Under the pieces are notes generated by a model. It was not told the DNA's origin. It ran no database searches and was given only the letters and a program-made list of their open reading frames with translations. A DNA stretch of 64,000 nucleotides. Origin: Ensifer adhaerens. GTDB lineage: Bacteria; Pseudomonadota; Alphaproteobacteria; Rhizobiales; Rhizobiaceae. Shown here in pieces: positions 18,769 through 33,824 of the stretch. The first letter of the stretch is position 1. The number at the start of each line of letters is the position of its first letter. The stretch spans positions 1 to 64,000 of the forward strand of contig NZ_JABEKT010000002.1 of assembly GCF_013283195.1 (NCBI RefSeq), read 5' to 3'. Position numbers and translations under genes: made by a program.

Positions 18769-19395
18769 CTACTTTGCGTCGATCATCTTCGCCCAGCCTG
18801 CTGCGCGCTCGGCTGATTCGATCAGCACTGCCTTCGGCGCCTTGTACCATTCGTTCTCCGGCAGGCCGCGACGGTTGCGCACGAAGGCGATCGCCGCATC
18901 CAGCGTCGGGAACTCGGCCGGCAGGGTCAGGTGCAGAAACAGCGATACGACGATGACCGAACGCGACCGCCCTCCGCGGCAGTTGATCAGAATGTTGCCC
19001 ATCTCGCGGCGCGGATAGGACGGTTTTTCCGGCAGCACCTGCTCCAGCGCGGCGCGCAGGATGTAGTGGGCTGCCAGCATCTGCGTGTCGGGATTGCCGC
19101 CGCCGTCGATCAGTCCGATCTTGTAGTAACGGATCTCGCCCGGGCCGTAGACGCTGCCCTCATGGTCCGACACCAACTGCGCCTGGCGGACGAAATTGAA
19201 ATCGAGGTTGACGGCGCAGTTGACGACGGTGGTGATGCCGTTCTGCCTTAGGAGATCGAGGTCGCTCGTCCCTTCTTTGCCGGCAATATAGATATCGACG
19301 CCATAAAGCGGGTGTTGTTCATAGACGAGGCTGAGTTTGGCAAGTTCGGCCGACGCCTGTGGCATCGTCTCGGTCTCCTGGATAATGTCCAACAT
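18769..19395 (-). CDS. CX5R (dual-specificity-type) phosphatase, paralogue 1
   Basis: A 208-residue cytoplasmic cysteine phosphatase. The catalytic P-loop is INCRGGRSRS (Cys then five residues then Arg), with Asn where the usual motif has His before Cys. The likely general-acid loop is KIGLIDGGGNPDTQ. An N-terminal GVDIYIAGKEGTSDLDLLRQ block is shared with the paralogue at 32291. Family members hydrolyse phosphotyrosine, phosphoinositides or inositol phosphates. It is last in an operon with an ABC importer and a monophosphatase 17 bp upstream, so a small organophosphate is a likelier substrate than a protein. GAGGAG lies 4 nt before the ATG. Confidence 0.8.
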   Translation of the reverse strand: MLDIIQETETMPQASAELAKLSLVYEQHPLYGVDIYIAGKEGTSDLDLLRQNGITTVVNCAVNLDFNFVRQAQLVSDHEGSVYGPGEIRYYKIGLIDGGGNPDTQMLAAHYILRAALEQVLPEKPSYPRREMGNILINCRGGRSRSVIVVSLFLHLTLPAEFPTLDAAIAFVRNRRGLPENEWYKAPKAVLIESAERAAGWAKMIDAK

Positions 19396-19412
19396 ATTCT
19401 CCTCGTGCCTTT

Positions 19413-20318
19413 TCAGCTTGCCGCCGCGGCAATGCGTTTGTCCGAGATCGCCCGCGCGACGCGCTGCAATGTCGGATAATTTGCGCCGGCGCCTGTGGCG
19501 ATATAGCCGGGACACATGAAGTCGGGCGCATCCGCCGGCACCTTGCCGAGCGTCAGCGGCTCGTAACGGCCGCCGGCATTCTTCAAAATCAACGTCGCCG
19601 CCGCCACATCCCAGGAATTGACGCCGAAGCCGGTCGCCGCATCCGCCCAGCCCGCCGCCACATGGGCGATGCTGAGGGCGGCACTGCCCGGCCGCCGAAG
19701 TGTTGAAAATGTCTCCACGAACTCCCCGAGATTGGTGAGCGCGGCCTCACGGCCATCGAGGCGGAAATCGCGCGACACGGGATAGCCGGTAATCAGCGTT
19801 GCCCGGTTCTCGTCATCGACCGCTTGCGAGGAGATAACCGCTCCATTGAGATAGGCGTGCTCGAGATCGGCGGAAAACATCAAGTCGGCGACCGGATCAT
19901 AAACGACGCCGGCAACGACCTCCCCCTGTTCGACGGCGGCGATCGACACGCACCAGAACGCCAGTCCGCTGGCGAAGTTCGAGGTGCCGTCGATGGGGTC
20001 GACATACCACTGGATATCGCCGTCGCCCACTTGTCCGCCCTCTTCGCCAAGCATGGCCGAATTCGGCTCCTGCGCAAAAATGAAATCGCGAATGGTGGCT
20101 TCGGCGCGCTTGTCATGAATGGTGACGACATCATGCAGGTCGCGCTTGTAGTCGACCACCATATCGGAGCGGAAGGCTTTCAGCAGTGGATCGCGCACTT
20201 CGTCCGCGGCCCCGCGGGCAATCGCGACAAGACGCCTCGACCGCTCCAGCCGTTGTTCGGGGCCTGCCGTCGGCAAGGTCGCTGCGGAGAGACGCTTTTC
20301 CATGTCGTTCTGATCCAT
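19413..20318 (-). CDS. Inositol-monophosphatase-family phosphatase, paralogue 1
   Basis: A 301-residue Mg-dependent monophosphatase of the FIG superfamily. The metal site is complete: LGEEGG (Glu ligand), WYVDPIDGTSNFASG (DPIDGTSNF) and NSWDVAAATLILKNAGG near the C-terminus. Members act on inositol 1-phosphate, histidinol phosphate, nucleotides or sugar phosphates. It is cytoplasmic. It follows three binding-protein genes in the ABC operon and precedes a CX5R phosphatase by 17 bp; the same pairing recurs at 32.3-33.8 kb. The start codon sits directly after AAGGA, an unusually tight spacing. Confidence 0.87.
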   Translation of the reverse strand: MDQNDMEKRLSAATLPTAGPEQRLERSRRLVAIARGAADEVRDPLLKAFRSDMVVDYKRDLHDVVTIHDKRAEATIRDFIFAQEPNSAMLGEEGGQVGDGDIQWYVDPIDGTSNFASGLAFWCVSIAAVEQGEVVAGVVYDPVADLMFSADLEHAYLNGAVISSQAVDDENRATLITGYPVSRDFRLDGREAALTNLGEFVETFSTLRRPGSAALSIAHVAAGWADAATGFGVNSWDVAAATLILKNAGGRYEPLTLGKVPADAPDFMCPGYIATGAGANYPTLQRVARAISDKRIAAAAS

Positions 20319-20333
20319 TCCTTATCGAGAAAG

Positions 20334-20362: not shown

Positions 20363-20368
20363 ATTGTT

Positions 20369-21499
20369 TCACTTGCTGTAGTTCACACGCCAGAAATCCT
20401 GCCACTCCTCGCGCCGGTCGAAGTCCTCAAGACCGGTCGAAGAATTGTAGCCGAACAGGCGATCGGCGACCGTCATCAGTCCCGAGGGCTCGTCAGCCGG
20501 CATCTTGATGTCTGTGTTGGTCGGCAGCTTGCCGTCCTTCATCTGCGGTGCGATGCCTTCTTCCGTCAGGATGTAGTGGATGAAGAGCTTTGCCGCATTC
20601 GGGCTCTGCGTCTTCGTCGCGATCAGGCCGAGCTTGACGTAGGTCCAGCCGACCCAGGGATTGAGATCCTTGCAGATACCGAGCTTGTAGCCCTTGCCTT
20701 CGTTGTCGCGGAATTTTGCCGACGAGAGCAGGCCGAAGAAGGGCTCCTTCTGTCCAGCCGCCCCGACCGCTTCCGCCACCGGGTCGTCACCGTCCGTGAC
20801 CAGAGGCGCGTTCTGCGCCAGCGCCTTGATCCAGGCGGCCGACGCACTCTTCTCCTCGGTTGCCAGGTCCTTGCCGAAATAGGTCTTGTAGGCGCCGGCG
20901 ACCTTGTCGTCGGCGTGTTTCTCCATCTGGTTGAACCAGTCGGTATAGGTGCCCTTGGTCAAGGGGTCGACGAGCGCAACCTTGCCCTTCCACTTCGGCT
21001 CCGTCAGCTCCCAGATATTGGCCACCGGGCATTTGTCGTAGGCTTCGGTGTTGTAGGCCCAGACGTTGGCGTTGGTCGAAATCGCCAGCGGGTTCTGGAA
21101 CTCCGCCGGGATTTTCGCGACCATGTCGGCCGGCAGGTAGCTCTCGACGAATTCCTGCGGCAGGAGCTGCGCGAGTGCTGCCGGCGCGTCGGTGATCAGC
21201 GCGACATCGCCCTGCACGTTGCCCGCCTGGCTTTCCCGGATGATCATTTCCAACTGGCTGTTCGCCGACACTTTGACGCCGGTCGCCTTGACACCGTACT
21301 TGGCGGTAAAACCCTCGGCCATTTCGACGATCTTGCCGGTGCTGTCATAGACGTTGATCGGCTTTTCCGTCTTGGCCGCGGCGATCAGCGCATCCAGATC
21401 GAGGCCGTCAGCCGCATGGACCTGTGCCGAAAGCAGGCCGGCTGCCAACGCCGCCGCCGTCATCGTCATGCCACGCACTCTGTTCTTTTCTGTCGTCAT
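20369..21499 (-). CDS. Fe3+/AfuA-type ABC substrate-binding protein 1
   Basis: A 376-residue periplasmic binding protein with a signal peptide (cut near QVHAADG). It shares the frame INVYDSTGKIVEMAEGF...KYGVKATGVKV, the block NVQGDVALITDAPAA and the ending EEWQDFWRVNYSK with the next two genes. Databases tend to call such proteins iron(III)-binding. However, the AfuA branch binds hexose phosphates and related organophosphates, and the phosphatases next door favour that kind of ligand. The start is set by GGGAGGGG 5 nt upstream. Confidence 0.85.
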   Translation of the reverse strand: MTTEKNRVRGMTMTAAALAAGLLSAQVHAADGLDLDALIAAAKTEKPINVYDSTGKIVEMAEGFTAKYGVKATGVKVSANSQLEMIIRESQAGNVQGDVALITDAPAALAQLLPQEFVESYLPADMVAKIPAEFQNPLAISTNANVWAYNTEAYDKCPVANIWELTEPKWKGKVALVDPLTKGTYTDWFNQMEKHADDKVAGAYKTYFGKDLATEEKSASAAWIKALAQNAPLVTDGDDPVAEAVGAAGQKEPFFGLLSSAKFRDNEGKGYKLGICKDLNPWVGWTYVKLGLIATKTQSPNAAKLFIHYILTEEGIAPQMKDGKLPTNTDIKMPADEPSGLMTVADRLFGYNSSTGLEDFDRREEWQDFWRVNYSK

Positions 21500-21550: not shown

Positions 21551-22693
21551 TCATTTTCGGTGGTTTATTCTCCAGAGGTCCTGCCAGGCCTCGCGCTTGT
21601 CGAGGTCGTCGCCGGCCGTTGCGGCATCGAAGGCCATCAATTGATCGAGATACTTCGCGACGCCCGAGGGTTCATCGGCCGGCAGGCCGATCGTCGAGTT
21701 GCCCGAAATCTTCCCGTCTTCGGTCTGAGGCGCGATGCCCTCTTCCGTCATCAGGTAACGGACAAACAGTTTGGCGGCATTGGGGCTCTTGGTTTGGCCC
21801 GCGATCAGGCCGAAGCCCGGATAGAGGAATCCGGAAAACGGCTCGACACCGGCGCAGATGCCGAGCTTCAGGCCCTTCGTCAGGTTGTCGCGATACTTCG
21901 CCGTCGAGGTGATGACGAAGAACGGCTCGGCCTGCCCCGGCGCGCCGGCGGCATTGGCGACCGTCGTGGAATCCGCCAGCAGCGGGCCATTTTCGGCAAA
22001 GGCCTTGACCCAGGCAGCCGTCGCGCTTTCGCCGTTCGTCTCCAGCTTCTTGCCGTAAAGGCTTTGGTAGGCGCGGGCGACATCGGCGTCGCGGTGCGTC
22101 TCTATCTGATTGAACCAGTCGGCATAGAGCGGCTTGTCGAAGAGATCGAGCATCGCCAGCTTTCCACGCCATTGCGGCTCGGTCAGCTGCCAGATGTTGG
22201 TCACAGGGCACTTGTCGTATTTCTCGGTGTTGTAGGTGAAGACGTGAGGGTCCGAGACAACAACAAGAGGATTGCGTTGCGCTTCAGGAATATCCTTGGC
22301 GAGATCCGGGGGCGTCCAGCTGGTGGCAATGCCTTCCGGCAGCAACTGTCCGATTGCCGATGCCACGTCGGTTGCCACGCTGACGTCGCCGAGGATGTTG
22401 CCGGCCTGGTGTTCGCGGATCATCAACTCCACCTGCGTGGCTTCGTTGACCTTCTTGCCTGTCGCCTCAACGCCGTATTTTTCCGAGAACTCCTTGGCCG
22501 TGTCGACGATCTTGCCGGTGACCGCATAGACGGTGATCGGCGGCTCCTTCTTTGCCGCCTCGATCAGGGCGTCGAGGTTGAAGGCTTCTTCAGCCTTCGC
22601 CGGCCCACAGGTCAGTGTCATGGCAGCAAGGCTACCTGCGACCGCCCAGGCTAATGGGCGGTCGCGCAACGCGCTGCGTTTCATTTCTGTCAT
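21551..22693 (-). CDS. Fe3+/AfuA-type ABC substrate-binding protein 2
   Basis: A 380-residue paralogue of its two neighbours. The signal peptide ends near CGPAKAEEA. The core has ITVYAVTGKIVDTAKEFSEKYGVEATGKKV, a divergent form of the DSTGKIVEM block, and ends EAWQDLWRINHRK. It is the most divergent of the three at the ligand-facing N-terminal block (AVTG for DSTG), which hints at a different ligand preference. It lies 24 bp after binding protein 3 and 51 bp before binding protein 1. Confidence 0.85.
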   Translation of the reverse strand: MTEMKRSALRDRPLAWAVAGSLAAMTLTCGPAKAEEAFNLDALIEAAKKEPPITVYAVTGKIVDTAKEFSEKYGVEATGKKVNEATQVELMIREHQAGNILGDVSVATDVASAIGQLLPEGIATSWTPPDLAKDIPEAQRNPLVVVSDPHVFTYNTEKYDKCPVTNIWQLTEPQWRGKLAMLDLFDKPLYADWFNQIETHRDADVARAYQSLYGKKLETNGESATAAWVKAFAENGPLLADSTTVANAAGAPGQAEPFFVITSTAKYRDNLTKGLKLGICAGVEPFSGFLYPGFGLIAGQTKSPNAAKLFVRYLMTEEGIAPQTEDGKISGNSTIGLPADEPSGVAKYLDQLMAFDAATAGDDLDKREAWQDLWRINHRK

Positions 22694-22717
22694 GTCGTCA
22701 CTCTCCCGGCTGAGCCA

Positions 22718-23857
22718 TCACTTCTGGTAGTTAACCCGCCAGAAATCCTGCCAGGTTTCGCGCGCATCCCAATCGTCGAGGCTCGTATCCATCTGATAGG
22801 GCAGAACCTGATCGAGAACCTTGCCGATGCCAGAGGGTTCGTCGGCCGGAAGTGCGACGTCGCTGTTGGTCGACATCTTGCCGTCGGCCGCCTGCGGCGC
22901 GATGCCTTCCTCGGTCATGACGTAGTGGATGAAGAGTTTCGCCGCGTTCGGGCTGTTGGTGCCCTTGGTGATCAGTCCGACGCCCGGATACATCCAACCG
23001 AGCCAGGGCTTCAGGTCGGTGCAGAGCCCGAGCTTCATGCCCTTCTCGGCATTATCGCGAAATTTCGCCGAGCTCATCAGCCCCATGAACGGCTGTGACT
23101 GGCCCGGAGCACCGACGGCATCGGCTGCCGCGGCATCCGCATCCGTCAGAAGCGGCGCATTGGCGGCAAGCGCCTTCACCCAGGCTGCGGTCGCGCTGCC
23201 GTCGTCGAGTTCCAGTTCCTTGCCGTAGAGGGCTTTGTAGGCGGCTGCGACCTTGTCATCGCCATGTTTTGCCATCTGGTTGAACCAGTCGACATAGGAC
23301 GCCTTGCCGAGCGGGTCCTGCATGGCGACCTTGCCCTTCCACTCAGGGCCGGTCAGCTGCCAGATGTTGGTGACCGGGCACTTGTCGTAAAGCTCGGTGT
23401 TGTAGGCCCAGACGTTGGCGCTGGTCACGACCGTCAGCGGGCTCTGGTACTGCTGCGGGATTTTCGAGACCATGTCCGGCGGCAGCCAGCTCTCGGCAAA
23501 GCCCTGCGGGATCAGCTGCGCCATCGCTGCCGGCGCATCGCTGATGATCGAAACGTCGCCCTGGATGTTGTTGGCGCGCGCCTCGCGGATGATCATTTCC
23601 AGCTGCGCCGTCGCCTTGACCTTGGAGCCTTCGGCTGCGACGCCGTACTTGGCCGAAAAGGCCTTGGCCATTTCGACGATCTTGCCGGTGCTGTCATAGA
23701 CGGTGATCGGCGCTTCCTTCTTGGCCGCTTCGATCAGGGCATTCAGATCGAAGGCCTCCTCAGCCATCGCCTGCCCGGCCATGAGGCCGGCAAAGGCCGT
23801 CGTCCACAACAGGCAGCGCCTGGTATTGTCCGTTCTTCCATTCTTCCGAAAATGCAT
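22718..23857 (-). CDS. Fe3+/AfuA-type ABC substrate-binding protein 3
   Basis: A 379-residue periplasmic binding protein, first of the tandem triplet and closest to the ATPase gene. It has a long N-region signal peptide (cut near GQAMAEEA, twin-arginine-like RR but without the full motif). It then has ITVYDSTGKIVEMAKAFSAK, NIQGDVSIISDAPAAM and the ending TWQDFWRVNYQK. It is nearer to protein 1 than to protein 2. The ATG with GAGGAG 6 nt upstream replaces a start 17 codons earlier. Confidence 0.85.
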   Translation of the reverse strand: MHFRKNGRTDNTRRCLLWTTAFAGLMAGQAMAEEAFDLNALIEAAKKEAPITVYDSTGKIVEMAKAFSAKYGVAAEGSKVKATAQLEMIIREARANNIQGDVSIISDAPAAMAQLIPQGFAESWLPPDMVSKIPQQYQSPLTVVTSANVWAYNTELYDKCPVTNIWQLTGPEWKGKVAMQDPLGKASYVDWFNQMAKHGDDKVAAAYKALYGKELELDDGSATAAWVKALAANAPLLTDADAAAADAVGAPGQSQPFMGLMSSAKFRDNAEKGMKLGLCTDLKPWLGWMYPGVGLITKGTNSPNAAKLFIHYVMTEEGIAPQAADGKMSTNSDVALPADEPSGIGKVLDQVLPYQMDTSLDDWDARETWQDFWRVNYQK

Positions 23858-23916: not shown

Positions 23917-25050
23917 TCAGTTGAGCTTCGCGCTGCGCAGCAGCTTGTCTGCCTCGGCAATGCGCTGGCCGTCCTTGTCGAAGACGTGCAGAGCCTCCGG
24001 CGGCGCGAAAAACCGGACCTTTTCCCCGAGTTCGAGCCGCGGCAGCGCGTGCGTCGTCAGGAACAGCGTGTGGCTGTCGCTCTTCAGCTCCAGGATCCAG
24101 CTGCCGCCGGTCGGCAGGATACCGGTGACGACCATCTTGCCGCTGAAGTTGCCCTGCGGAACGTCTTCCTTCCTTGTCGCGTAGCTGAGCGCCTCCGGGC
24201 GGATGCCGACGGAGCCGATGCCGCGCAGGCTCGGGTAGCGGCTCGACAGGTAAGCTTCCGCCTCCTTGGCGACGTCTGAAGTACCCTTCTTGTCAAAGGA
24301 CAGGATGTTGATCGGCGGGCTGCCGACGAATTCGGCGACGAAACGATTGGCCGGACGGTCATAGATGTCGTTCGGCGTGCCCATCTGCTGCAGCGTGCCT
24401 TCGTTCATCACGGCGATGGTCGTCGCCAGCGTCATCGCCTCCCACTGGTCGTGGGTGACGAAGACGATCGTCGTCTTGAATTCCTTGTGCAGGCGCTTCA
24501 GTTCGGCGCGCATCTCGAGCCGCAGCCGCGCGTCGAGGTTCGACAATGGTTCGTCGAGAAGCAGCACGCCCGGATTGACGGCAAGCATGCGGGCAAGGGC
24601 CACACGCTGCTGCTGGCCGCCCGAAAGCTGCGACGGGTAGCGGTCGCGGTACTTGGCGATGTCGAGCGCCTGCATGACCTTTTCGACCCGGGCCTCGCGC
24701 TCGGCCTTCGGCAGCTTGCGCAGCCGCAGGCCGAAGTCGGTGTTGCGCTCGATGGTCAGGTGCGGCCAGAGCGCGTAGCTCTGGAAGACTAGGCCCATTT
24801 CGCGCTTCTCCGGCGGCACGAAGACGCCTTCGAAGATGGAATCGACCACCCGGTCGCCAATGCGGATCTCGCCGCCCGACAGGTTTTCAAGGCCCGCGAT
24901 CATGCGCAAGGTCGTCGTCTTGCCGCAGCCCGATGGGCCGAGCAGGCACATGAATTCTCCGTCGCGGATTTCCAGATCGAGGTTGGAGACGGCATTGGCG
25001 GAGTTGACGCCATAATTCTTCTGGGCGCCGCGCAGATTGATAGTGGGCAT
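23917..25050 (-). CDS. Fe3+/AfuC-type ABC transporter ATP-binding protein
   Basis: A 377-residue ATPase of the FbpC/UgpC/AfuC type. Walker A is GPSGCGKTT (38-46), the Q loop VFQSYALWPH, the signature LSGGQQQR, Walker B VLLLDEPLSNLD and the switch VTHDQWEAM. A C-terminal TOBE region (about 285-365) serves regulation. It overlaps the permease stop by one base (TGATG) and precedes the three binding-protein genes by 59 bp. As the only ATPase gene here it must serve all three. Confidence 0.9.
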   Translation of the reverse strand: MPTINLRGAQKNYGVNSANAVSNLDLEIRDGEFMCLLGPSGCGKTTTLRMIAGLENLSGGEIRIGDRVVDSIFEGVFVPPEKREMGLVFQSYALWPHLTIERNTDFGLRLRKLPKAEREARVEKVMQALDIAKYRDRYPSQLSGGQQQRVALARMLAVNPGVLLLDEPLSNLDARLRLEMRAELKRLHKEFKTTIVFVTHDQWEAMTLATTIAVMNEGTLQQMGTPNDIYDRPANRFVAEFVGSPPINILSFDKKGTSDVAKEAEAYLSSRYPSLRGIGSVGIRPEALSYATRKEDVPQGNFSGKMVVTGILPTGGSWILELKSDSHTLFLTTHALPRLELGEKVRFFAPPEALHVFDKDGQRIAEADKLLRSAKLN

Positions 25051-26903
25051 CAGCTTCCGAGTCCTTCTGCAAGATTGGTCTTGGTCAGCTTCTGGGCTGC
25101 CAGTGTTCCGAGATAGGCGATTGCCGCGATGATCAGCACGACCGCGTTTGCCGCCTGGGTGTAGTGGTAATCGACAAGCCGCAGCGAATAGGTCGTCAGG
25201 ACATCAGTGCTGGGCACGGCGAGGATGACGAACAGGCTGAGGCCCTTGATGCCGGAGATGAACGGCAGCAGCACACCGGTGACGAGCGAGCCCTTCTGGA
25301 TCGGGATGACGATCGACATCATCCGGCGGAACCAGCCGGCGCCGGCGATCTGGGCTGCCTCTTCCGGGTCCTTACCAAGCTGGGTCATGGCCGAGATCCC
25401 GGCCCGCGAGGCGTAGGGCATCTGGTCCGCCATCAGCGCCAGCACCAGGATGGTGACCGTGCCATAAAGCGCCGGCATCGGGCCTCTTGGAACCGCAAAG
25501 AGCGATAGGTAGGCGGCAGCAAAGGCAATGCCGGGCACCAGATAGGGCAGGAAGGTCACCTGACGCAGGTAGACCGACAGCGCCCGAACCGGGGTGCGGA
25601 TGACGACATAGCCGACAAGCAGGCCGAGGATGCCGGACGCGATAGAGGCAAGGCCGACGATCATCAGCGTGTTCTTAGCCGCCGCCCAGAGATCAGGGCT
25701 CAGGAGTACGCCTGTCTGCAGCGCCACCGTGTGCAGGTCCTGCCCGATCCAGTAGTCGAGCGTGAAGTTGTCGAGCGTGAACTGTGCCGGCAGCTTCATG
25801 ACCGTCGACAGGAACAGGGTGAGCAGCGGCAGTCCGACGCTCAGCATGAAGATGGTTGCGGCAAAACCCGTTGCGGGCAGCCTCAGTTTGCCGAGTCGGC
25901 TCTGCCGGTTCATCGAGCCCTTGGAGCCGATGGTGACGAAGCGGCGCGCTTCGCGCACCAGTCGGGCATCGATCATCAGGGTGATGATGCCGATCAGCAT
26001 GATGGAGGCGGCAACGACACCGGCGACACCTGTCTGGCGTGAGGCGATGCTGCGGAAGAGCGAGGTGGAGAGCACCTCGAACTTGACCGGCAAGCCGAGC
26101 ACATAGGGCACGCCGAACTCGCCCAGGCACTTTGCAAAAATCAGGATCATCGACGACATCAGCGCCGGCCGCATCAGCGGCAGGATGATCTGCATTGCCA
26201 CCTGGTAGCGCTTGGCACCGAGGATGCGGGCAGAATCTTCGAGCTGGGAATCGAAGCGCCGCAGCGCCGAGCCGAACAGCAGGATGACGAAGGGGGTGTA
26301 ATGCAGGGCAAGGATGATGGTGATCGGGAAGCGGCCATAGGCAACCCAGTCCGGCGGCGTCCACCCGAGCGCCTCGAACCAGCCCGGCTGGCCACCGACC
26401 GTGCGGTTCTTGAACAGGGTCGTCCAGGCGAGCGCGAAGGTCCAGGCGGGAAGCATGTAGGGCACGATCAGCGCGGTCGCGAACCAGCGCCGTCCGAACA
26501 TGTCGGTGCGGCTGATCAGCCAGGCAAGAATTGTCCCGATCAACAGCGACAGCAGGATCGCGCCGACGGCAACCGACAGCGTGTTAAACAGAGGTCGCCA
26601 GAAGAGATCGACGGAGACCGGGGACGTGAATGTCCGGTCGAGATAATAGAGCGTCAGATCGCCGAAATCCTTGCCGAGCCGGCGCTCATGCCCGAACTGG
26701 ACACGCACGGCATCGAGCACGATGGAGATGATCGGCACGACGATCAGATAGGTGAAGAGCAGCGCCGTCAGCACGCCGATTAATGTCGTCGGCTCCCGCG
26801 AGGCGACCTTCAACCGGTATCGCCAGACCTGCCAGGCCGAAGGCGCGGACGCCTCGCCGCCCGCTGTCGGCGACGCCTTCGCTGAATCACTTAGAAAAGC
26901 CAT
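25050..26903 (-). CDS. Fused Fe3+/AfuB-type ABC transporter permease
   Basis: A 617-residue inner-membrane protein made of two fused permease domains, as in FbpB/AfuB. Twelve or so membrane helices are visible. The first EAA-like loop is EDSARILGAKRYQVAMQIILPL and the second EEAAQIAGAGWFRRMMSIVIP. A long cytoplasmic N-terminus (about 45 residues) precedes the first helix. It is first in the operon, divergent from the LacI regulator across 621 bp. AGGGGA lies 7 nt before the chosen ATG. Confidence 0.9.
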   Translation of the reverse strand: MAFLSDSAKASPTAGGEASAPSAWQVWRYRLKVASREPTTLIGVLTALLFTYLIVVPIISIVLDAVRVQFGHERRLGKDFGDLTLYYLDRTFTSPVSVDLFWRPLFNTLSVAVGAILLSLLIGTILAWLISRTDMFGRRWFATALIVPYMLPAWTFALAWTTLFKNRTVGGQPGWFEALGWTPPDWVAYGRFPITIILALHYTPFVILLFGSALRRFDSQLEDSARILGAKRYQVAMQIILPLMRPALMSSMILIFAKCLGEFGVPYVLGLPVKFEVLSTSLFRSIASRQTGVAGVVAASIMLIGIITLMIDARLVREARRFVTIGSKGSMNRQSRLGKLRLPATGFAATIFMLSVGLPLLTLFLSTVMKLPAQFTLDNFTLDYWIGQDLHTVALQTGVLLSPDLWAAAKNTLMIVGLASIASGILGLLVGYVVIRTPVRALSVYLRQVTFLPYLVPGIAFAAAYLSLFAVPRGPMPALYGTVTILVLALMADQMPYASRAGISAMTQLGKDPEEAAQIAGAGWFRRMMSIVIPIQKGSLVTGVLLPFISGIKGLSLFVILAVPSTDVLTTYSLRLVDYHYTQAANAVVLIIAAIAYLGTLAAQKLTKTNLAEGLGS

Positions 26904-27257
26904 GCTCTGTCCCCTTGAGATCCCGCCTCGCAACACGATCCGGCTGTGCGCCGGGCGCCTCGCGGCCGAGCCAACATGCGAACGGGGAGATCAGGCAAAG
27001 TCGCACGGGCACCACCCCCGCCCCATGTCGGGCTGGGCAATCTGCCGCGAAAACGCGATGCGTCGTCATCGATCCAATCCTCCCTGTTCGCGACCGACCC
27101 CGTTCAAACGATCCTGTCCGGATCGGGTCCTATGGCCTCCAGCCACTCCTCAGAAGCTGTCGCCAACACCACGAACATAGGCGGAACGAAAATTCCATTT
27201 CAGAACCGCCTATGGAATGCATGATCCATTGAGAGGCTTCGCTTGTCAACAAAAAAA

Positions 27258-27271
27258 TGCACACGTGCGCA
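27258..27271. promoter_or_regulatory. Candidate LacI-family operator 1
   Basis: TGCACACGTGCGCA is palindromic except for one base pair and has the central CG typical of LacI-family operators. The half-site TGCACACG recurs twice at 33.84-33.87 kb, before the second phosphatase operon. A related site (27327-27340) is centred 69 bp away. Confidence 0.55.
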
Positions 27272-27326
27272 ATGATCTATATCATTGTTTTTATTGCATA
27301 TTTTTTTGCTCTGTTACGACTTTCTT

Positions 27327-27524: not shown

Positions 27525-28511
27525 ATGGCACGAGGGTTCGTTACGGCAGAGGAAGTCGCAAAGCGTGCGGGCGTATCGCGCTCGGCGGTCTCGCGAACCT
27601 TTACACCGGGTGCCAGCGTTTCCCAGGCAGTCCGGCGCAAGGTGCTGAAGGCTGCGCGCGAGCTCGGCTATCGAGTCAACCGGCTGGCTCAAGGATTGAA
27701 CAACGACCGCTCCAACCTGATCGGCGTCGTCGGCACCAATCTCAGCGCGCCCTTCATTTCCAAACAACTCGATCTCTTGAGCATCGGCCTGCTCCGGCGC
27801 GGACTTCAGTGCCTGCTGTTGAATGCCGCCGATGCCCGCAAGGATATCGCACCGCTGATCGAACTGCTGTTCGAATTCCGTGCCCAGGCGATCGTCGTGC
27901 TGTCCGGCGAGCCTCCGTCCTCGATCGTCGACGAGTGCATTGCCAATGGTGTGCGGCTGATCCTGGTCAATCAGCGGCTTGACCGAACCGACACCAACAT
28001 GGTGCTGAGCGACGATTCGCACGGCGCGGATCTTGCCGCGCTTCGGCTGATTGCCGCCAAATGCCAGAAGGTTGCGGTCGTCTCCAGCGCCAGCCAGACG
28101 CCCGCCCAGGTCCGCCGGGCAACGGCATTTACACAAAGGATGCAGACGGCCGGCGTCGAAGTGGTCGCCTGGTCGGACGGTCCGACCGGCTACGAAAGCG
28201 GCTATCAGGCCGGTTGCGAAATCTTGCGCGACAAGATGATCGACGGGGCATTCTGCGTTACCGACCTCCTGGCGCTCGGCTTCCTCGATGCCGCCCGCAT
28301 TGAAATGCATCGACGCGTGCCTGAGGATGTCTCGGTCATCGGCTTTGACGATATTCCGCAAGCCGGCTGGAAGAGCTACGAGCTGACGACCATCGTCCAG
28401 TCCTTGTCGACCTTGACCGACAACGTGCTAACGGCGCTCGAAACCGACGAACCCGCGACCCGGCTACAGGTGGTGCCCGTCTCGATGATCGAGCGGAAGA
28501 CGGTGCGCTAG
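27525..28511 (+). CDS. LacI-family transcriptional regulator
   Basis: A 328-residue regulator of normal LacI length. The N-terminal HTH is TAEEVAKRAGVSRSAVSRTFTPGASVS with the hinge GYRVNRLAQGLNNDRSNLIGVV. The rest is a periplasmic-binding-fold sensor (about 60-325), ending with SVIGFDDIPQAGWKSYELTT. GAGGAAAACC before the ATG sets the start; an in-frame TTG four codons upstream is less likely. It is divergent from the ABC operon and flanked on the other side by the phosphatase/phosphate-carrier operon. It is therefore the obvious regulator of both, with the imported compound or its dephosphorylated product as effector. Confidence 0.9.
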   Translation: MARGFVTAEEVAKRAGVSRSAVSRTFTPGASVSQAVRRKVLKAARELGYRVNRLAQGLNNDRSNLIGVVGTNLSAPFISKQLDLLSIGLLRRGLQCLLLNAADARKDIAPLIELLFEFRAQAIVVLSGEPPSSIVDECIANGVRLILVNQRLDRTDTNMVLSDDSHGADLAALRLIAAKCQKVAVVSSASQTPAQVRRATAFTQRMQTAGVEVVAWSDGPTGYESGYQAGCEILRDKMIDGAFCVTDLLALGFLDAARIEMHRRVPEDVSVIGFDDIPQAGWKSYELTTIVQSLSTLTDNVLTALETDEPATRLQVVPVSMIERKTVR

Positions 28512-28578: not shown

Positions 28579-30222
28579 TCAACCGGCCCGGCGGATGCGG
28601 CTTTCGATCAGCAGGCCGCTGTCGTCGAGGATTGGGTGCGCAACCGATGCGATGTGGGCGTTGATGCGCTTGAGGTCGCGCAACATGTCGAGGTGCAGCG
28701 AACTGGTCTCGATGCTTTCCGCCCGGCCGTCGCGCAGGCGCTGCAGGTGCCGATCGGCCGATTGCCGCTCGAGCCGGCGCACATCTTCCTTCACTTCCAC
28801 CAGCCGCCGCGCCAGGCCTGCATCACGCGTTGCAAACACCGTCTGTGCCATGCGCAGATTGTCGAGCGTAATCGCAAAGAGCCGCGTCAGTTCCTCATGG
28901 CCATCCTGCGAAAACGCCAAGCCGCGCGAAATCTTCTTTGCCAGTTCGGCCAGCAGACCCTTTTCGATGATGTCGCCGATATGCTCGAGATTGATGGCGT
29001 AGTCGACGACATCCATTGCCCGCCGCCGGTTGTCTTCTCCGATCTCCGCCTGGCCGAGGCGCGAGACATAGACCTTGATCTGATGCTGCAGCCGGTCCAC
29101 CCGGCCCTCGAGCGTGCTGATGCCGGCCAGTTTCGAGGGGTCCGCATGTTGGAGCGCGTCGCTGGCCTGGACCAGCATGCTCTCGATCAGATCACCGACG
29201 GCGAGGACCTCGCGGCTGGCGCCGGCAAGGGCTGCGACCGGCGTCGAGAGCTTTTCCTCGTCGAGATAGCTCGGCACATCCGACATCCGCGCCGCGTCCG
29301 GCAACAACCGCGCTGTCAGTGCTGCGAGCGGTCGCGACAGTGGCCAGGCCAGCATCGCTAGCGCCAGATTGAAGATGAGATGGGCATCGACGGGCAGCTT
29401 GTCATGCGACAGCGGCAGGATGTCGAGAAATTGCGCGGAGTAGCCGGCAAGCGGCAAGGCGACGAGGCAGCCGATGGCGCGCACGATGAGATTGCCGATC
29501 GTCACGCGCCTGGCGCTGATCGGTGAGCGCAACGTCGCCAGAACCGGCGGCACGGCGCCGCCGAGATTGGCACCAAGTACCAGGACGATAATGAGCCCCG
29601 TGGAAATGCCGCCCGTTGCCGCAAGCGACAGGATGAGGACGACGACGGCAAGGCTCGAGGATGCCAAGACCGCCAGCATGGCCGAGAAGATGAGCGCGAC
29701 AGGCCAGGCATTGTCGAGCATCGCGAGGAAGGCCGAAAGCGCCGCAGATGCGCGCAATGGTTCCGTTGCAAGACCGATCAGATGCAGCGACAACAGCATC
29801 AGCCCAATGCCGACCAGGGCAGCACCACCGCCCTTTCGCGCATTCGAGGTTCCGCGCGACAGGATAACGCCGACCAGAATGAGAAGTGGCGAGAGCCAGC
29901 CGATCCCGAGCGACACGATCCACGCCGTCATCGCAGTGCCGACATTGGCGCCCAGAAGCACGATCTGCGCCATACGCGGCGCCACGAGATTGCGTTCGGC
30001 GAAAGACGCGATCATCAGCGCCGTCGCGGTCGAACTCTGCAGCGCGACCGTTGCGAAAAGACCGGCGAGAAAAGAGCGCACGCCGTCGCGCGTCCCGGCG
30101 GCCAGTCCGGACTTCAGCCTGGCGCCGAAGGCGCGCTGCACGCCATTCTTGACCTCAGACAGCCCGAACAGCAGCAACGCCACGGCGCCGAAGAGATTGA
30201 TGCTGACGATGGTCGATTCCAT
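28579..30222 (-). CDS. Na/Pi cotransporter family protein with PhoU-like tail
   Basis: A 547-residue membrane protein. Residues 1-300 carry the two inverted Na/Pi repeats, marked by ALQSSTATALMIASF and the second VLASSSLAVVVLILS, with about eight to ten helices. Residues about 330-540 are a helical PhoU-like domain (DLIESMLVQASDAL, then VDYAINLEHIGDIIEKGLL). The bacterial YjbB relative exports phosphate when cytoplasmic Pi is high. As the last gene of an operon of phosphatases, this protein could dispose of released phosphate. Confidence 0.87.
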   Translation of the reverse strand: MESTIVSINLFGAVALLLFGLSEVKNGVQRAFGARLKSGLAAGTRDGVRSFLAGLFATVALQSSTATALMIASFAERNLVAPRMAQIVLLGANVGTAMTAWIVSLGIGWLSPLLILVGVILSRGTSNARKGGGAALVGIGLMLLSLHLIGLATEPLRASAALSAFLAMLDNAWPVALIFSAMLAVLASSSLAVVVLILSLAATGGISTGLIIVLVLGANLGGAVPPVLATLRSPISARRVTIGNLIVRAIGCLVALPLAGYSAQFLDILPLSHDKLPVDAHLIFNLALAMLAWPLSRPLAALTARLLPDAARMSDVPSYLDEEKLSTPVAALAGASREVLAVGDLIESMLVQASDALQHADPSKLAGISTLEGRVDRLQHQIKVYVSRLGQAEIGEDNRRRAMDVVDYAINLEHIGDIIEKGLLAELAKKISRGLAFSQDGHEELTRLFAITLDNLRMAQTVFATRDAGLARRLVEVKEDVRRLERQSADRHLQRLRDGRAESIETSSLHLDMLRDLKRINAHIASVAHPILDDSGLLIESRIRRAG

Positions 30223-30276: not shown

Positions 30277-30573
30277 TCACTGCCTGCCGCGCCGCAACTC
30301 CTCGCGGAACAACTGCTGAAACGCGGCATACTTCTCGAAGCCCAGATCGCTGATCAGCCGCATGACCGTCGTGGTCGAGACGCCGGCACGCTCAGCCACT
30401 TCCCGTGCGCTGGCAAAGGCGATGTCATAGGGATGGGACAGGGCAAACTTGGCGACTTCGAGCCGCCCGCCCTTGAGCCGGCGGGCGCCAAGGCGAAACG
30501 CCTCCTTCAACTCCGGGACGCTTGCCGGCGGCTTCAGCCTCCAGCCGGGCAATTCAAGCGACTGTTCGTTCAT
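30277..30573 (-). CDS. HTH-only RpiR-family protein (98 aa)
   Basis: A short protein holding only the N-terminal HTH of RpiR/MurR regulators: RLEVAKFALSHPYDIAFASAREVAERAGVSTTTVMRLISDLGFEKYAAFQQLFREEL. Full family members are about 280 residues, with a sugar-phosphate-binding SIS domain that is absent here. Only 54 bp separate its stop from the next gene, so there is no room for a lost SIS domain. GGAGG lies about 10 nt upstream of ATG, and the start overlaps the phosphoesterase stop by ATGA. It may bind DNA without a ligand, or act with another RpiR protein. Confidence 0.75.
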   Translation of the reverse strand: MNEQSLELPGWRLKPPASVPELKEAFRLGARRLKGGRLEVAKFALSHPYDIAFASAREVAERAGVSTTTVMRLISDLGFEKYAAFQQLFREELRRGRQ

Positions 30574-32291
30574 GGGCAAACAACCTCCTTCGCGTCTCGC
30601 TGCAAGGTGATCTCGATCTGCCGCGCACCGTTTTCCGCCCGGTCGAGAAAGGCAGCAAACGCACCCAGGAAGATCGACAGGAAACCGGCGACAGAACCGT
30701 CCCACCCTGTTTCCGGCGCGCGGCCGAAGTTTATGGAAAGGGCGCGGTAAAGTCGCAGTTGCTCCTGCGGTATCGCAGGCAGCGCCAGGTGAGCCGCCTG
30801 GCGCAGGCAGTACCAATCGGCGATGACATCAATCATGCGGCAGGCGGCGATTTGTTCGCTCGACATTCCGCATGCATTTGCAAGCGCGTGCAAGGTATGC
30901 GCCGCCGCGTCAGCATCGAGAAACTCCGCGCAGATACCTGCAAGCGTGGCTTTCGAGACGCGGTTCACCACATCCTGCGGCCACTCCTTGGGGAAATAGC
31001 GGTGGTGAACCAATGCCAGCTTATGAGCCCTCAGGAAGGCGCCGTAATCCTCGGCGCCGAAAGCGAGGTCGTCCGCTTCCGCGAGCTGCTCCGTCTCGCG
31101 GCGATAGGCCGGCGCAAGACGCGGATCCAGAGCCGCTGCCTGCAGCTCGACGGTATCAACAACGATGCCGTCGTTCACAGGCTGAATGATCTTGAAGGCC
31201 GGCGGATAGGCGACCAGCGAAGGCACCGCCACATTGGTGATCTGACGCGCGGCAGGCCCGCGCCGCGTTACGCCCTCGACATGAAGATGACCGCTGAAAT
31301 GCACGGCGAGCCCGGCGCCAAGCAGGGCATCGGCGACAGCCTCGCGCGGCGTGCGCCGGGCGACATTGGTTTCCCCGAAAAGAACGCGCTCGGCCCCGGT
31401 CGCGCCGTCGAACGGATCAAGCGCCGGATAGTGCGAAAAGGCGAGCACGGTCTTGCCCAGCACCTCTGCCCGCGCACAGACATCGGCTATCCACGAGACG
31501 ATGAAGGGTTTCAGACGCAGCATGGCGTTCCAGCCGGCAGCGGTGCTGTCGACGAAAGCGGCCTCCTGGCCGCCTTCAAACGTGCCATCCCGTGGCTCGA
31601 ACACATTGGCGTCAATCATCAACAACCAGATGCCCGGCTCCGGCTCGACCAGATAGGAGGCGTCCATCAACGCATAGCGGTTGCTTCCATCCGGCGAAGC
31701 CACCTCGTAACGCCGGCTTTCAACGTCGTCGGCAAGACCGAACGGCGTTTCCCAATGCAGGTAGTCCGGCTTGCGAAAATAGCCGTAGGCAGCCATCGGT
31801 CCGAGACCGGACGGGTAGCCCTCGCAATACATGCGCTGAGTCACGACGGCGCCCTCGGCCGTCGATGCCGGATCACTCGTCACCCAGACGCCGGCACCGT
31901 CCTGATCCAGGAATTCCTTGGTGTGGTTGCGCCCCGTCGGGCCGAAAATGTCGTGGTTGCCCGGAAGGGCATAGAAGGCGGTGCCATGCTCGCTCGCATG
32001 CCGATCGAGGATGCGGCGCAGGCTCGCCGTCGTCTGCCGCTGGCCGTCGTCGGTGTAATCCCCGAGCAGCACGACATGTCGAATGCCACGCTCGCGCACC
32101 GCGTCCAGCGCCACCGAAAGCGCCCTGGCGCTCTCGTTGAAAACACGGGTCGACTGCCGCGTTTCCGCCCAGCTGCGAACCATCATCCGCTGGCCGTCGA
32201 CGGTCATGCCGGGGAAATCGAAGTCGCCTTCAAGGTCGTGGAAATGCGCGTCGGCGATAACGGCGATGCTCGGCTCGCTGCGTTTCAACAT
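30570..32291 (-). CDS. Calcineurin-like metallophosphoesterase
   Basis: A 573-residue cytoplasmic enzyme. All five dimetal motifs are visible in the first 320 residues: VIADAHFHD, LLGDYTDDG, LPGNHDIFG, FSHYPALDP and FSGHLHVEG. The C-terminal 250 residues are helical and unlike anything I recognise. Family members cleave phosphomono- or diesters. Within this operon a role in opening a phosphodiester (for example a glycerophospho-compound) before the monophosphatases is plausible. It overlaps the CX5R gene upstream by TGATG and the RpiR gene downstream by ATGA, so all three are translationally coupled. Confidence 0.85.
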   Translation of the reverse strand: MLKRSEPSIAVIADAHFHDLEGDFDFPGMTVDGQRMMVRSWAETRQSTRVFNESARALSVALDAVRERGIRHVVLLGDYTDDGQRQTTASLRRILDRHASEHGTAFYALPGNHDIFGPTGRNHTKEFLDQDGAGVWVTSDPASTAEGAVVTQRMYCEGYPSGLGPMAAYGYFRKPDYLHWETPFGLADDVESRRYEVASPDGSNRYALMDASYLVEPEPGIWLLMIDANVFEPRDGTFEGGQEAAFVDSTAAGWNAMLRLKPFIVSWIADVCARAEVLGKTVLAFSHYPALDPFDGATGAERVLFGETNVARRTPREAVADALLGAGLAVHFSGHLHVEGVTRRGPAARQITNVAVPSLVAYPPAFKIIQPVNDGIVVDTVELQAAALDPRLAPAYRRETEQLAEADDLAFGAEDYGAFLRAHKLALVHHRYFPKEWPQDVVNRVSKATLAGICAEFLDADAAAHTLHALANACGMSSEQIAACRMIDVIADWYCLRQAAHLALPAIPQEQLRLYRALSINFGRAPETGWDGSVAGFLSIFLGAFAAFLDRAENGARQIEITLQRDAKEVVCP

Positions 32292-32902
32292 CAGTCCTGC
32301 CCGGATGTCTTGCCGGCGATCATGTCGATCCATTCAGACGCACGGCGTGCCGCGTTGTAGAGCATCGGCTTGGGGGTCTCGAACCATTCGTCGGGACGCA
32401 ATTCGCGATGTTCGCGGATATGGGCGACGGCGGCGTCGAGCGTCGGGAACAGTTCCGGCTGCTGCTTGTGCAGGAACAGCGCCACGAGCGAGACCGACCG
32501 GCTGCGTCCGCCACGGCAATTGACCAGCACATTGCCGCCATCCGCAAAGGGATAGGTTTCACGCTTCGGCATCGCCTGACGCAAGGCGCCATCCAGGATG
32601 TAGTAGGCGCCGAGCATCATGGTATCAGGGCTGCCTTCTCCGTCGATCAGGCCAAGCTTGTAGTAGCGAATGTCGGCATAGCCGCTGGGCCGCAGATCGC
32701 CGCCACCGTCAACGTCGGCCTCACGCACCCAATTGATATCGAGATTAATCGCGCAGTTGACGACCACAGAGATGCCGTGCCGCTTGAGCAGATCAAGATC
32801 GCGTGCGCCATCGCTGCCGCCGATATAGAGGTCTGATTTGTGCGGACCCAGGCCCTTGGCGATCAGGCTGATTGCCGGTCGCGCGTAAACAGGTGCATCC
32901 AT
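32291..32902 (-). CDS. CX5R (dual-specificity-type) phosphatase, paralogue 2
   Basis: A 203-residue paralogue of the gene at 18769. The P-loop is LVNCRGGRSRS, again with Asn before the catalytic Cys. The shared blocks are SDLYIGGSDGARDLDLLKRHGI, RYYKLGLIDGEGSPDT and LFPTLDAAVAHI. It has no signal peptide. It sits second in the operon after a monophosphatase, mirroring the first locus, although gene order beyond the pair differs. The start at MDAPVYARP is preceded by GAAAGGA. Confidence 0.8.
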   Translation of the reverse strand: MDAPVYARPAISLIAKGLGPHKSDLYIGGSDGARDLDLLKRHGISVVVNCAINLDINWVREADVDGGGDLRPSGYADIRYYKLGLIDGEGSPDTMMLGAYYILDGALRQAMPKRETYPFADGGNVLVNCRGGRSRSVSLVALFLHKQQPELFPTLDAAVAHIREHRELRPDEWFETPKPMLYNAARRASEWIDMIAGKTSGQD

Positions 32903-32981
32903 GCCGTATCCTTTCGAGGTCGGGCGGCGCCGAGAGACATGCCACCCATAATTCTCAGTCTTTATTCTTTGACGCGGTCGC

Positions 32982-33824
32982 TCATGCGAGCCGGAGTTCA
33001 GCCACTGGCGCGTCCGCCGACGCGATCGGTATCCGCGACGCCTGGCTGATCCCCGGGGCAATACCGGGGGCGGAAGCGAGCACCGGCCCGCCATGGCGAA
33101 GACTGCCGATTTCCATGAAGGGGCAGACGTCGCCGCCGGCCTCGGCAACCAGCAGCAAGCCGGCAACGCAATCCCAGGAGTTCATGTGCAGCTCGATATA
33201 GGCATCGGAACGACCGTCAGCGACATAGGCGAGCGCCAGCGCGCCGGAGCCAGCCCTGCGGACATTGGTGCCGAGCGCCAAGAGGTCGCGGATGGTTTCA
33301 AGGTAGATCTCGTTGGACACACGGCCGGACCAGCCCATCTCCACCGACGCAGTCTCGAACGCTGTAGTCGCCGAGACTGTAATCGGCTGGCCGTTGCGGG
33401 TCGCACCGACGCCACGCTCGGCAAAATAAAGCTCGTCCAGCGCAGGATTGTAGATGGCGCCGATCTCCGCCCGGCCGTTTTCGATATAGGCGATCGAAAT
33501 GCAGAAATGCGGGATGCTGCGGGCGAAGTTGGCCGTGCCGTCAACGGGATCGACCACCCAGAGACGATTGCTGATCGAGCCACCGCCTTCCTCACCGAAG
33601 AAGCCGTCGTCGGGAAAGTGTTCGGCAATCGCCTTGCGAATATGCGCCTCGGATGCAGCATCCGTCTCGGTCAGAAAGTCCTGCGGACCCTTCATCGAGA
33701 AGCCGCGGCTCGCACTCTCCTCGAAGCCCCGCAGCACGAGCGCACCGGCCGACAGGATGACGTCGCGGCAGAGTTTTGCCCGACCCTGCAGATCGTTCGG
33801 ATAGAATGGTCGTTCCAGGTTCAT
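32982..33824 (-). CDS. Inositol-monophosphatase-family phosphatase, paralogue 2
   Basis: A 280-residue Mg-dependent monophosphatase. It has FFGEEGG, WVVDPVDGTANFARS and NSWDCVAGLLLVAEAGG, so the metal site is intact. It opens the second phosphatase operon and lies 79 bp before the CX5R gene. Upstream are two LacI-type sites only 17-48 bp before the start codon. It is closer to classical SuhB/IMPase proteins than the first paralogue (DPVDGTANF, TETD). AAAGGAG lies upstream, with a two-codon mini-frame in another phase between it and the ATG. Confidence 0.88.
   Translation of the reverse strand: MNLERPFYPNDLQGRAKLCRDVILSAGALVLRGFEESASRGFSMKGPQDFLTETDAASEAHIRKAIAEHFPDDGFFGEEGGGSISNRLWVVDPVDGTANFARSIPHFCISIAYIENGRAEIGAIYNPALDELYFAERGVGATRNGQPITVSATTAFETASVEMGWSGRVSNEIYLETIRDLLALGTNVRRAGSGALALAYVADGRSDAYIELHMNSWDCVAGLLLVAEAGGDVCPFMEIGSLRHGGPVLASAPGIAPGISQASRIPIASADAPVAELRLA

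Follow-up and report, generated by a model that had tools for sequence, protein, structure and literature searches.

A conserved transporter and phosphatase module with LacI-type regulators in Ensifer adhaerens and its predicted role in inositol-phosphate use

Gene content of the locus

The DNA analyzed comprises positions 1 to 64,000 of the forward strand of the Ensifer adhaerens contig NZ_JABEKT010000002.1, which will be referred to as the window, and the region of interest extends from position 18769 to 33824. The organism lives in soil and has root-nodule symbionts among its relatives. Genes were identified by family profile scans (Pfam, NCBIfam) combined with gene calls and inspection of catalytic motifs, and family scans and gene calls recovered every gene named in the original prediction (Table 1). 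Operon A on the minus strand encodes a permease, an ATPase, three binding proteins of the SBP_bac_11 family, an enzyme of the Inositol_P family (IMP) and a CX5R phosphatase of the DSPc type (DSP); the ATPase gene overlaps the permease gene by 1 base. Operon B, on the same strand, encodes a second IMP, a second DSP, a Metallophos enzyme, a protein of 98 amino acids with a helix-turn-helix (HTH) and a Na/Pi carrier with PhoU. Both operons are present and syntenic on pSymB of S. meliloti, the permease being 89% identical to its counterpart there, and relatives of either DSP were found in 89 plasmid records. Since synteny and plasmid records agree, the locus is far beyond what chance would produce.

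Table 1: Features of the locus and the evidence for their assignment
Feature	Position	Strand	Evidence
Fused ABC permease, 617 aa, heads operon A	25050..26903	-	PF00528, two BPD_transp_1 stretches
ABC ATPase, 377 aa	23917..25050	-	PF00005; Walker A, LSGGQ
Binding protein 1	22718..23857	-	PF13531; 90/90 near-invariant family positions kept
Binding protein 2, longer ORF (gene call start 22621)	21551..22693	-	PF13531; 88/90 near-invariant positions kept
Binding protein 3 (modelled)	20369..21499	-	PF13531; 90/90 near-invariant positions kept
Inositol monophosphatase-family enzyme A	19413..20303	-	PF00459 2e-46; GEE, DPIDGT, WDVAA
DSP-type CX5R phosphatase A	18769..19395	-	CRGGRSRS; DSPc 1.9e-6, below cut-off; two alignments
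LacI-family regulator	27525..28511	+	PF00356, PF13377
Na/Pi carrier with PhoU domains	28579..30222	-	PF02690, PF01895; TIGR01013 above cut-off
RpiR-type HTH, 98 aa	30277..30573	-	HTH_6 7.4e-6, below cut-off
Calcineurin-type metallophosphoesterase	30570..32291	-	PF00149; D.H/GD..D/GNHD/GHLH
DSP-type CX5R phosphatase B	32291..32902	-	DSPc 7.6e-7, below cut-off; fold model
Inositol monophosphatase-family enzyme B, heads operon B	32982..33824	-	PF00459 4.3e-58; motifs
Putative LacI operator, operon A	27257..27272	.	TTGCGCACGTGTGCAT as read on the minus strand; 2 of 12 positions off consensus
Two putative tandem operators, operon B	33840..33873	.	ATGAACGCGTGTGCAA and ATGCTCGCGTGTGCAA as read on the minus strand

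Both IMPs carry intact GEE, DPxDGT and WDxxA, the motifs of the inositol monophosphatase family, and with 159 and 197 bits they exceeded the PF00459 cut-off of 27. They are predicted to act on inositol phosphates. The loop CRGGRSR is present in both DSPs, C129 and R135 are invariant in an alignment of 27 rows, and the model of DSP B (pLDDT 86.2) found its best fold matches among dual-specificity phosphatases, whereas the DSPc scores of 28.1 and 29.4 bits both missed the Pfam cut-off of 33.5 (PF00782). PDB sequence searches with the DSP profile yielded distant relatives only. The DSPs gave no match to the Pfam model of the PTP-like phytases, DSPc alone being reported at E values up to 0.001. 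The sole PDB sequence match of the metallophosphoesterase was LMO2642 (2xmo), and inspection by eye revealed no obvious signal peptide. The regulator predicted to belong to the RpiR family does possess an HTH of the HTH_6 type, but the HTH stands alone and reached 26.3 bits compared to a cut-off of 28.3; no match to the sugar-phosphate (SIS) domain was obtained. The Na/Pi carrier exceeded the curated cut-off of TIGR01013 (354 versus 306 bits), which places it in this family, and is proposed to be a phosphate exporter.

Among the NCBIfam models, the permease scored best with PhnU2, reaching 138 bits where the cut-off is 593, and the best models for the ATPase were UgpC and a phosphonate model, both below their cut-offs. 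The binding proteins have the type II binding-protein fold of the FbpA ferric-binding proteins, and the AlphaFold2 model of binding protein 3 (mean pLDDT 90.7) is predicted to adopt a fold of the FbpA/AfuA type. In comparisons with Foldseek and VIA-align this fold was about equally near to iron, citrate and hexose-phosphate binders and thus does not separate these ligands; PDB sequence searches with the binding-protein profile returned distant relatives only.

Conservation of the module and its neighbourhood

For comparison, 80 loci of 20.6 kb each were kept out of 247 relatives. The core, defined as fused permease, ATPase, binding protein, IMP, CX5R phosphatase and LacI regulator, was complete in 73 of them and is a conserved module; the phosphatases are thereby shown to be conserved together with the transporter across genomes, a point proposed earlier as a check. 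The LacI gene was found in 77 of the 80 loci, the metallophosphoesterase in 27 and the Na/Pi carrier in 14. No IMP gene was detected in two loci with transporter and DSP (L035 and L041), and in two Marinomonas loci the DSP is the only module gene and adjoins an iol operon.

The importer had been described as being of the AfuABC/FbpABC type. Superfamily and ABC type agree with this description, whereas AfuABC itself does not: binding protein 3 matched AfuA at just 8.2e-5, while the AfuA-type neighbour found in L054 did so at 3.5e-94, and no close kinship with the AfuA subfamily was found. The alignment to AfuA has approximately 21% identity, and single residues such as the sugar contacts His205, Asp206 and Glu229 were not trusted at this level. 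An AfuA-type binding protein stands as a separate neighbour of the module in 10 of the 80 loci, for which reason membership in AfuABC was dropped; hexose phosphates are therefore conceivable partners of the module. In Shinella, an IMP gene directly follows AfuABC-type genes.

The fold of the binding proteins would also agree with an FbpABC-type importer of ferric iron, possibly one for iron chelated by inositol phosphates. The adjacent tyrosine pair, which is the iron-binding feature of FbpA proteins, is not conserved, however, as YY occurs in 8 of 110 binding-protein relatives at scattered positions and in none of the three proteins of the window. A LacI-type protein is the constant regulator, and to our knowledge neither cytoplasmic phosphatases nor a LacI gene are usual in iron systems. 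Iron import, which we regard as very improbable, was dropped because of the absent tyrosine pair and the constant LacI-type regulator.

Phytases of three kinds (PhyK-type, MINPP and beta-propeller) were detected in 13 of the 80 loci. A PhyK-type histidine-acid phytase (HAP) is encoded in five loci, and the homologous copy on a Klebsiella plasmid matched the 3-phytase 2wnh at 6e-83; beta-propeller phytases (BPP) are encoded in two Devosia loci. MINPP-type genes occur in six loci, where the Vibrio gene and one of five Halomonas-type genes were checked and the others assigned by similarity; the gene in L082 was seen by tblastn and went unreported in the PF00328 search of its genome. Among the HAP and BPP genes of genomes holding the module, 12 out of 37 lie inside the 20.6-kb loci (p ~4e-20 under random placement, and 5e-7 if five events alone count as independent). 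Genes for inositol catabolism (iol) are present in 10 of the 80 loci, adjacency being limited to Marinomonas and Devosia, and one Devosia locus (L077) combines phytase, module, Na/Pi carrier and iolG/iolB. At the level of whole genomes, iolE scored above cut-off in the window's genome and in 37 of 50 holders of the module, compared to 66 of 398 genomes of a phylum sample. The remaining 13 holders, five of which have a MINPP-type gene adjoining the module, indicate that use as a carbon source is not universal. A genome search for HAP and beta-propeller phytases found neither kind in the window's genome, and the organism may therefore scavenge products of other organisms. The association with phytases and iol genes points to inositol phosphates as the substrate.

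Operator-like sites

A strict palindrome search with CG or GC as centre found the motif in few loci, and a search tolerating up to 4 mismatches gave 234 matches, the mean for shuffled loci being 59; for the final counts the motif was defined by 12 fixed positions. Of 74 permease genes, 65 are preceded by the palindrome TTGCAC(N4)GTGCAA with at most one mismatch of 12, compared to none of 92 ATPase genes and none of 26 phosphoesterase genes. An operator-like site was found for 38 of 762 other genes, and each of these 38 shares it with a module gene. Among 12 Na/Pi carrier genes tested, 7 have a site with at most one mismatch no more than 400 bases away. The palindrome is most likely the LacI operator.

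In the window, the site of operon A occupies the same place as the site upstream of other permeases, and an alignment with five Ensifer/Sinorhizobium relatives demonstrated that the sites of both operons are kept with small changes. As weaker variants of the site precede each operon, the two probably form one regulon.

Two unlinked phytase genes, one of the MINPP type (L103) and one of the beta-propeller type (L120), are likewise preceded by exact copies, and in three other loci exact or near sites accompany an IMP gene, an MFS transporter gene and a HAP phytase gene beside LacI genes. No site of their own was found for PhyK-type phytases and the KdgM porin adjoining the module (0/5 each), and 20 of 25 unlinked HAP and BPP genes have neither an upstream site nor an IMP-MFS-HAP operon. 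Sites of the same pattern lie upstream of further genes (L121-L130), and L122 and L123 contain a different ABC operon accompanied by a LacI gene.

The genes for a RuBisCO-like protein and a DUF1537 kinase lie on the same strand upstream of operon B, 98 bases from the gene of IMP B. Were they members of the operon, the substrate might be phosphorylated apiose or a four-carbon acid. The genes sit in an apiose-type neighbourhood, and a four-carbon acid kinase gene is also found near the S. meliloti locus, there on the opposite strand. However, relatives of either gene at 1e-10 were found in only one of the 80 loci (L096), and the operator-like sites lie between kinase and IMP B. Their membership in operon B is highly improbable and was dropped on account of this rarity and the intervening sites.

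Proposed function and known systems

The original prediction, in which a phosphorylated polyol (for example inositol phosphate) is imported and dephosphorylated step by step in the cytoplasm and surplus phosphate is exported, is supported by the comparative evidence from phytases and iol genes, as well as by the operator type that two unlinked phytases share with the transporter, the phosphatases and the Na/Pi carrier. We consider it likely that the two operons represent one LacI-controlled system for the use of inositol phosphates. The binding-protein-dependent ABC importer of the FbpABC/AfuABC superfamily would bring inositol phosphates, probably partly dephosphorylated products of phytate, into the cytoplasm, where the CX5R phosphatase would remove phosphates from the more highly phosphorylated forms and the IMP would take the final phosphate, delivering myo-inositol to the iol pathway. 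In a subset of alphaproteobacteria, the metallophosphoesterase would allow further substrates to be used, which may include phosphodiesters such as glycerophosphoinositol, and the co-regulated Na/Pi carrier would export accumulating phosphate. Some relatives have a phytase gene of their own beside the module or under the same operator, whereas the organism of the window would use inositol phosphates freed by others.

It is unlikely, though less so than iron import, that another organophosphate is imported (a hexose or pentose phosphate, a glycerophosphodiester or a phosphonate), with IMP and DSP acting as general phosphatases and the phytases being merely co-regulated phosphorus scavengers. 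The best models of permease and ATPase, all below cut-off, the AfuA-type neighbours and the gene order in Shinella would fit such a substrate, and enzymes of the IMP family can be promiscuous. On the other hand, the module is clustered with three kinds of phytases and with iol genes, a LacI-type protein is its constant regulator, and the phosphonate genes next to the Vibrio locus come with a regulator and a transporter of their own.

Phytate ranks among the major stores of organic phosphorus in plants and soils and is usually pictured as being dephosphorylated outside the cytoplasm, followed by uptake of inositol. PhyK-type HAP, MINPP and beta-propeller phytases, which address the same nutrient and, for some relatives of the module, lie within the locus or under common regulation, act outside the cytoplasm, unlike the predicted cytoplasmic enzymes of the module. 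The iol pathway would consume the product of the module and starts from free inositol. Ugp, an importer of glycerol-3-phosphate and glycerophosphodiesters with the cytoplasmic phosphodiesterase UgpQ, works in a similar way with a different binding protein and different enzymes. AfuABC of Actinobacillus, described as an importer of hexose and heptose phosphates (PMC4546632), shares fold superfamily and ABC type with the module and takes up an intact phosphorylated carbohydrate. It differs in that the permease in the AfuABC-type cluster has 738-761 amino acids compared to 617 in the module, which is constantly accompanied by cytoplasmic phosphatases and LacI. The pyridoxal-phosphate binding protein P5PA demonstrates that the superfamily fold can bind another ring phosphate; it shares 16 to 19% identity with the module binding protein, and excerpts of its description name no phosphatase or phytase partners (PMC8427247). 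Uptake of free inositol has been described, and excerpts of two articles name no bacterial inositol-phosphate importer (PMC12482443, PMC9430895). Among the open-licence literature matches listed, titles and abstract openings gave no description of an inositol-phosphate importer with these genes.

On balance we favour a dedicated route in which intact inositol phosphates would be imported, sensed by a LacI-type regulator and dephosphorylated in the cytoplasm, with at least three kinds of phytases recruited independently and phosphate exported in some alphaproteobacteria, such that plant-associated bacteria may gain carbon and release phosphate. If true, the existence of a dedicated importer that has a regulator and phosphatases of its own would alter the view of who owns the products of phytate and would account for some annotations as 'iron ABC transporter'; if phosphate is exported, rhizobia would keep the carbon while giving phosphate back in the vicinity of roots. 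As pSymB of S. meliloti carries the same operons, these ideas can be tested directly in that organism.

Gene content and conservation of the module

The window is the beginning of a contig in a 7.07-Mb genome, for which Ensifer canadensis provides the nearest plasmid record (DSP proteins 94 to 95%). Family scans and gene calls found the gene content of the original prediction, namely the importer, the phosphatase pairs, LacI, the phosphoesterase, the RpiR-type HTH protein and the Na/Pi carrier. Catalytic motifs are all present in both inositol-monophosphatase-family enzymes (IMP), both CX5R phosphatases (DSP), the phosphoesterase and the ATPase. The same two operons flank a LacI gene on pSymB of S. 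meliloti, with two binding proteins versus three in the window.

Features of the window and of loci in other genomes
Feature	Record	Position	Content
Operon A	window		minus strand; in order fused permease, ATPase, three binding proteins, IMP, DSP
Putative operon A operator	window	27257-27272	TTGCGCACGTGTGCAT
LacI gene	window	between operons A and B	
Operon B	window		in order IMP, DSP, metallophosphoesterase, small RpiR-type HTH, Na/Pi carrier with PhoU domains
Putative operon B operators	window	33840-33873	two tandem sites
Apiose-type neighbourhood	window	33923-46768	RuBisCO-like protein, DUF1537 kinase, GntR/FCD regulator, Gfo/Idh dehydrogenase, PGDH_C protein, two Peripla_BP_4 proteins, sugar ABC transporter with DUF2291 lipoprotein
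640-aa protein	window	37440-39362	between Gfo/Idh and GntR genes; no Pfam match at E ≤ 0.001
IMP-MFS-HAP operon	L101, Vibrio	3299-8115	beside LacI genes/sites
IMP-MFS-HAP operon	L109, Erwinia	3582-12891	beside LacI genes/sites
IMP-MFS-HAP operon	L115, Pantoea	1-9299	beside LacI genes/sites
SBP_bac_8 ABC operon	L122	4749-9966	exact operator-like site in front; LacI gene last
SBP_bac_8 ABC operon	L123	1-4850	exact operator-like site in front; LacI gene last

Searching a one-genome-per-species collection with the DSP alignment yielded 247 relatives, the best 80 of which were kept as loci (L-numbers). All six core genes (fused permease, ATPase, binding protein, IMP, DSP, LacI) were detected by tblastn in 73 of these best 80. 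Among the seven exceptions, three Marinomonas loci (L028, L051, L053) carry DSP alone, IMP was not detected by tblastn in L035 and L041, and L074 and L097 lie on short contigs. Judged from record titles, the holders among the best 80 are alpha- and gammaproteobacteria. IMP and DSP are fused into one protein in Celerinatantimonas and all but one of the enterobacteria of the set; the phosphoesterase occurs in 27 and the Na/Pi carrier in 14 of the 80 loci. The system is real and conserved, and its distribution is patchy; an even sample of 398 Pseudomonadota genomes contained a DSP relative (E ≤ 1e-20) in six, including the genome studied here, and three of these, with only 124 to 141 bits, may represent a sister type.

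On a conjugative Klebsiella pneumoniae plasmid (L011), module, phytase and a KdgM porin are flanked by IS elements. A sister system was observed in Paracoccus, Pannonibacter and Alloyangia (L016, L017, L018), comprising an ABC importer, an MBL-fold hydrolase replacing IMP, and a DSP relative; LacI adjoins in two of the three loci, and operator-like sites stand upstream in L017 and L018.

A common operator-like palindrome

The palindrome TTGCACATATGTGCAA or TTGCACAGCTGTGCAA is located upstream of the permease gene in both classes. Scored as TTGCACNNNNGTGCAA (12 positions, at most one mismatch, within 400 bases upstream), it preceded 65 of 74 permease genes (42 exact), 21/75 LacI genes, 7/12 Na/Pi carriers and 14/60 IMP genes, and none of the 92 ATPase or 26 phosphoesterase genes. 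Sites were also counted before 38 of 762 other genes, each of the 38 being shared with a gene for permease, LacI, IMP or Na/Pi carrier. Exact sites were rare, with between 0 and 4 in each of 50 genomes, and those of a reversed control pattern numbered 0 to 2. The sites of operons A and B are conserved, slightly altered, across the window and five Ensifer/Sinorhizobium relatives. Since LacI and the sites are constantly together, we infer that LacI binds these putative operators. The SBP_bac_8 operon, a different ABC operon, may also make use of this type of operator.

The RuBisCO-like protein and the DUF1537 kinase upstream of operon B were rejected as members: relatives occur in one of 80 loci (L096), and operator-like sites stand between them and the IMP gene of operon B. 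Both fit a catabolic neighbourhood of what we take to be the apiose type.

Phytases and inositol catabolism at the loci

Phytases of three kinds are encoded in 13 of the 80 loci. A PhyK-type histidine acid phosphatase (HAP) is present in those of Erwinia, Pantoea, Klebsiella, Enterobacter and Celerinatantimonas, and a homologue encoded on a K. pneumoniae plasmid matched the Klebsiella 3-phytase structure (6e-83). The MINPP type occurs in Vibrio and five Halomonas-type loci, an assignment for which one of the latter five genes was tested and the other four follow by similarity. Two Devosia loci carry a beta-propeller phytase (BPP; D. limi homologue, PF02333 at 8e-45 in the family scan). Phytase positions and orientations differ among the groups, which argues for repeated recruitment to the module.

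Searching 50 of the 80 genomes with PF00328 yielded 32 genes in 25 genomes, 10 of these genes inside loci; the MINPP-type gene of L082, seen by tblastn, was absent from these 32. PF02333, searched in another, overlapping 50 genomes, gave one gene each in five genomes, two inside loci. The location of 12 of 37 HAP/BPP genes inside loci corresponds to p ~4e-20, or ~5e-7 counting only five events, under a rough model (20.6 kb per 5-Mb genome) that ignores gene clustering. Among the 25 unlinked HAP/BPP genes (22 + 3), two have an exact site directly upstream, namely the BPP of Devosia limi (L120), which has another site with one mismatch, and a MINPP-type gene in Marinomonas rhizomae (L103). Three others (L101, L109, L115) are part of IMP-MFS-HAP operons that have LacI genes next to them. 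Exact sites precede IMP in L101; L109 and L115 have two-mismatch sites before IMP and exact sites before neighbouring LacI and AfuABC-type genes. The remaining 20 of the 25 showed neither an upstream site nor such an operon. An AfuABC-type permease and binding protein are divergent from the operon in L109 and L115.

Genes of myo-inositol catabolism (iol) were found in 10 of the 80 loci, eight from Marinomonas, adjoining the module or DSP, and two from Devosia. Five of the eight contain iolA, E, D and C plus G and B; the Devosia loci contain iolC at 56% (L065) and iolG, B and D (L077). NCBIfam cut-offs were exceeded by iolG, B, E, D and an IolC-type fusion in L053, and by iolG and iolB in L077. 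In L051 and L053 the lone DSP gene stands beside an iol operon; iol genes also adjoin the sole DSP of L028. An iolE above cut-off was present in the genome studied here and in 37 of 50 holders, compared with 66 of the 398 sample genomes (odds ratio 14, kinship ignored). Speaking against a universal carbon role, 13 of the 50 holders have no iolE above cut-off; these include Vibrio sp. HDW18 and four of the five Halomonas-type genomes in which a MINPP-type gene adjoins the module.

Candidate ligand and proposed pathway

The solved folds nearest to the model of binding protein 3 (pLDDT 90.7) belong to proteins that bind ferric iron, Mg-citrate, hexose phosphate or pyridoxal phosphate and show 13 to 22% identity, so that the ligand cannot be read from the fold. 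In the binding-protein alignment, 11 columns are basic in 22/22 sequences, eight of them occupied by a single invariant Lys or Arg, as would suit an anionic ligand. No tyrosine pair like that of iron binders is conserved in the sequences compared. The three binding proteins of operon A keep 90, 88 and 90 of 90 near-invariant positions, which suggests related ligands.

Gene content, co-conservation, the common site and the company of phytases and iol genes uphold the main line of the original prediction, import of a phosphorylated polyol or sugar followed by cytoplasmic dephosphorylation, and inositol phosphate is quite probably the substrate class, being the best supported. Inositol phosphates would be bound by the importer, DSP would dephosphorylate polyphosphorylated forms, IMP would remove the last phosphate, and LacI would sense either an inositol phosphate or inositol itself. 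Transport by the Na/Pi carrier would be outward, as reported for YjbB of E. coli. The only PDB sequence match of the phosphoesterase is LMO2642, presumably a phosphodiesterase; diesters such as glycerophosphoinositol are therefore possible substrates in alphaproteobacteria.

The importer, predicted to be of AfuABC/FbpABC type, belongs to the same superfamily as AfuABC, which imports intact organophosphate as proposed here, but is not AfuABC itself. Ugp, another importer of intact organophosphates, resembles the module in its way of working. The passages on inositol and its uptake in a review (PMC12482443) and a survey (PMC9430895) do not mention a bacterial inositol-phosphate importer. No description of such a system was found in titles and abstract beginnings among the open-licence papers listed, and the system is apparently new to the literature.

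AfuABC-type transporters were also observed in L013, L014 and L054, in the vicinity of the module or of a paired IMP and DSP. In Shinella such genes are followed by IMP and in Rhizobium leguminosarum by a HAD phosphatase; in Aminobacter the transporter stands beside the module, its binding protein having been compared with AfuA.
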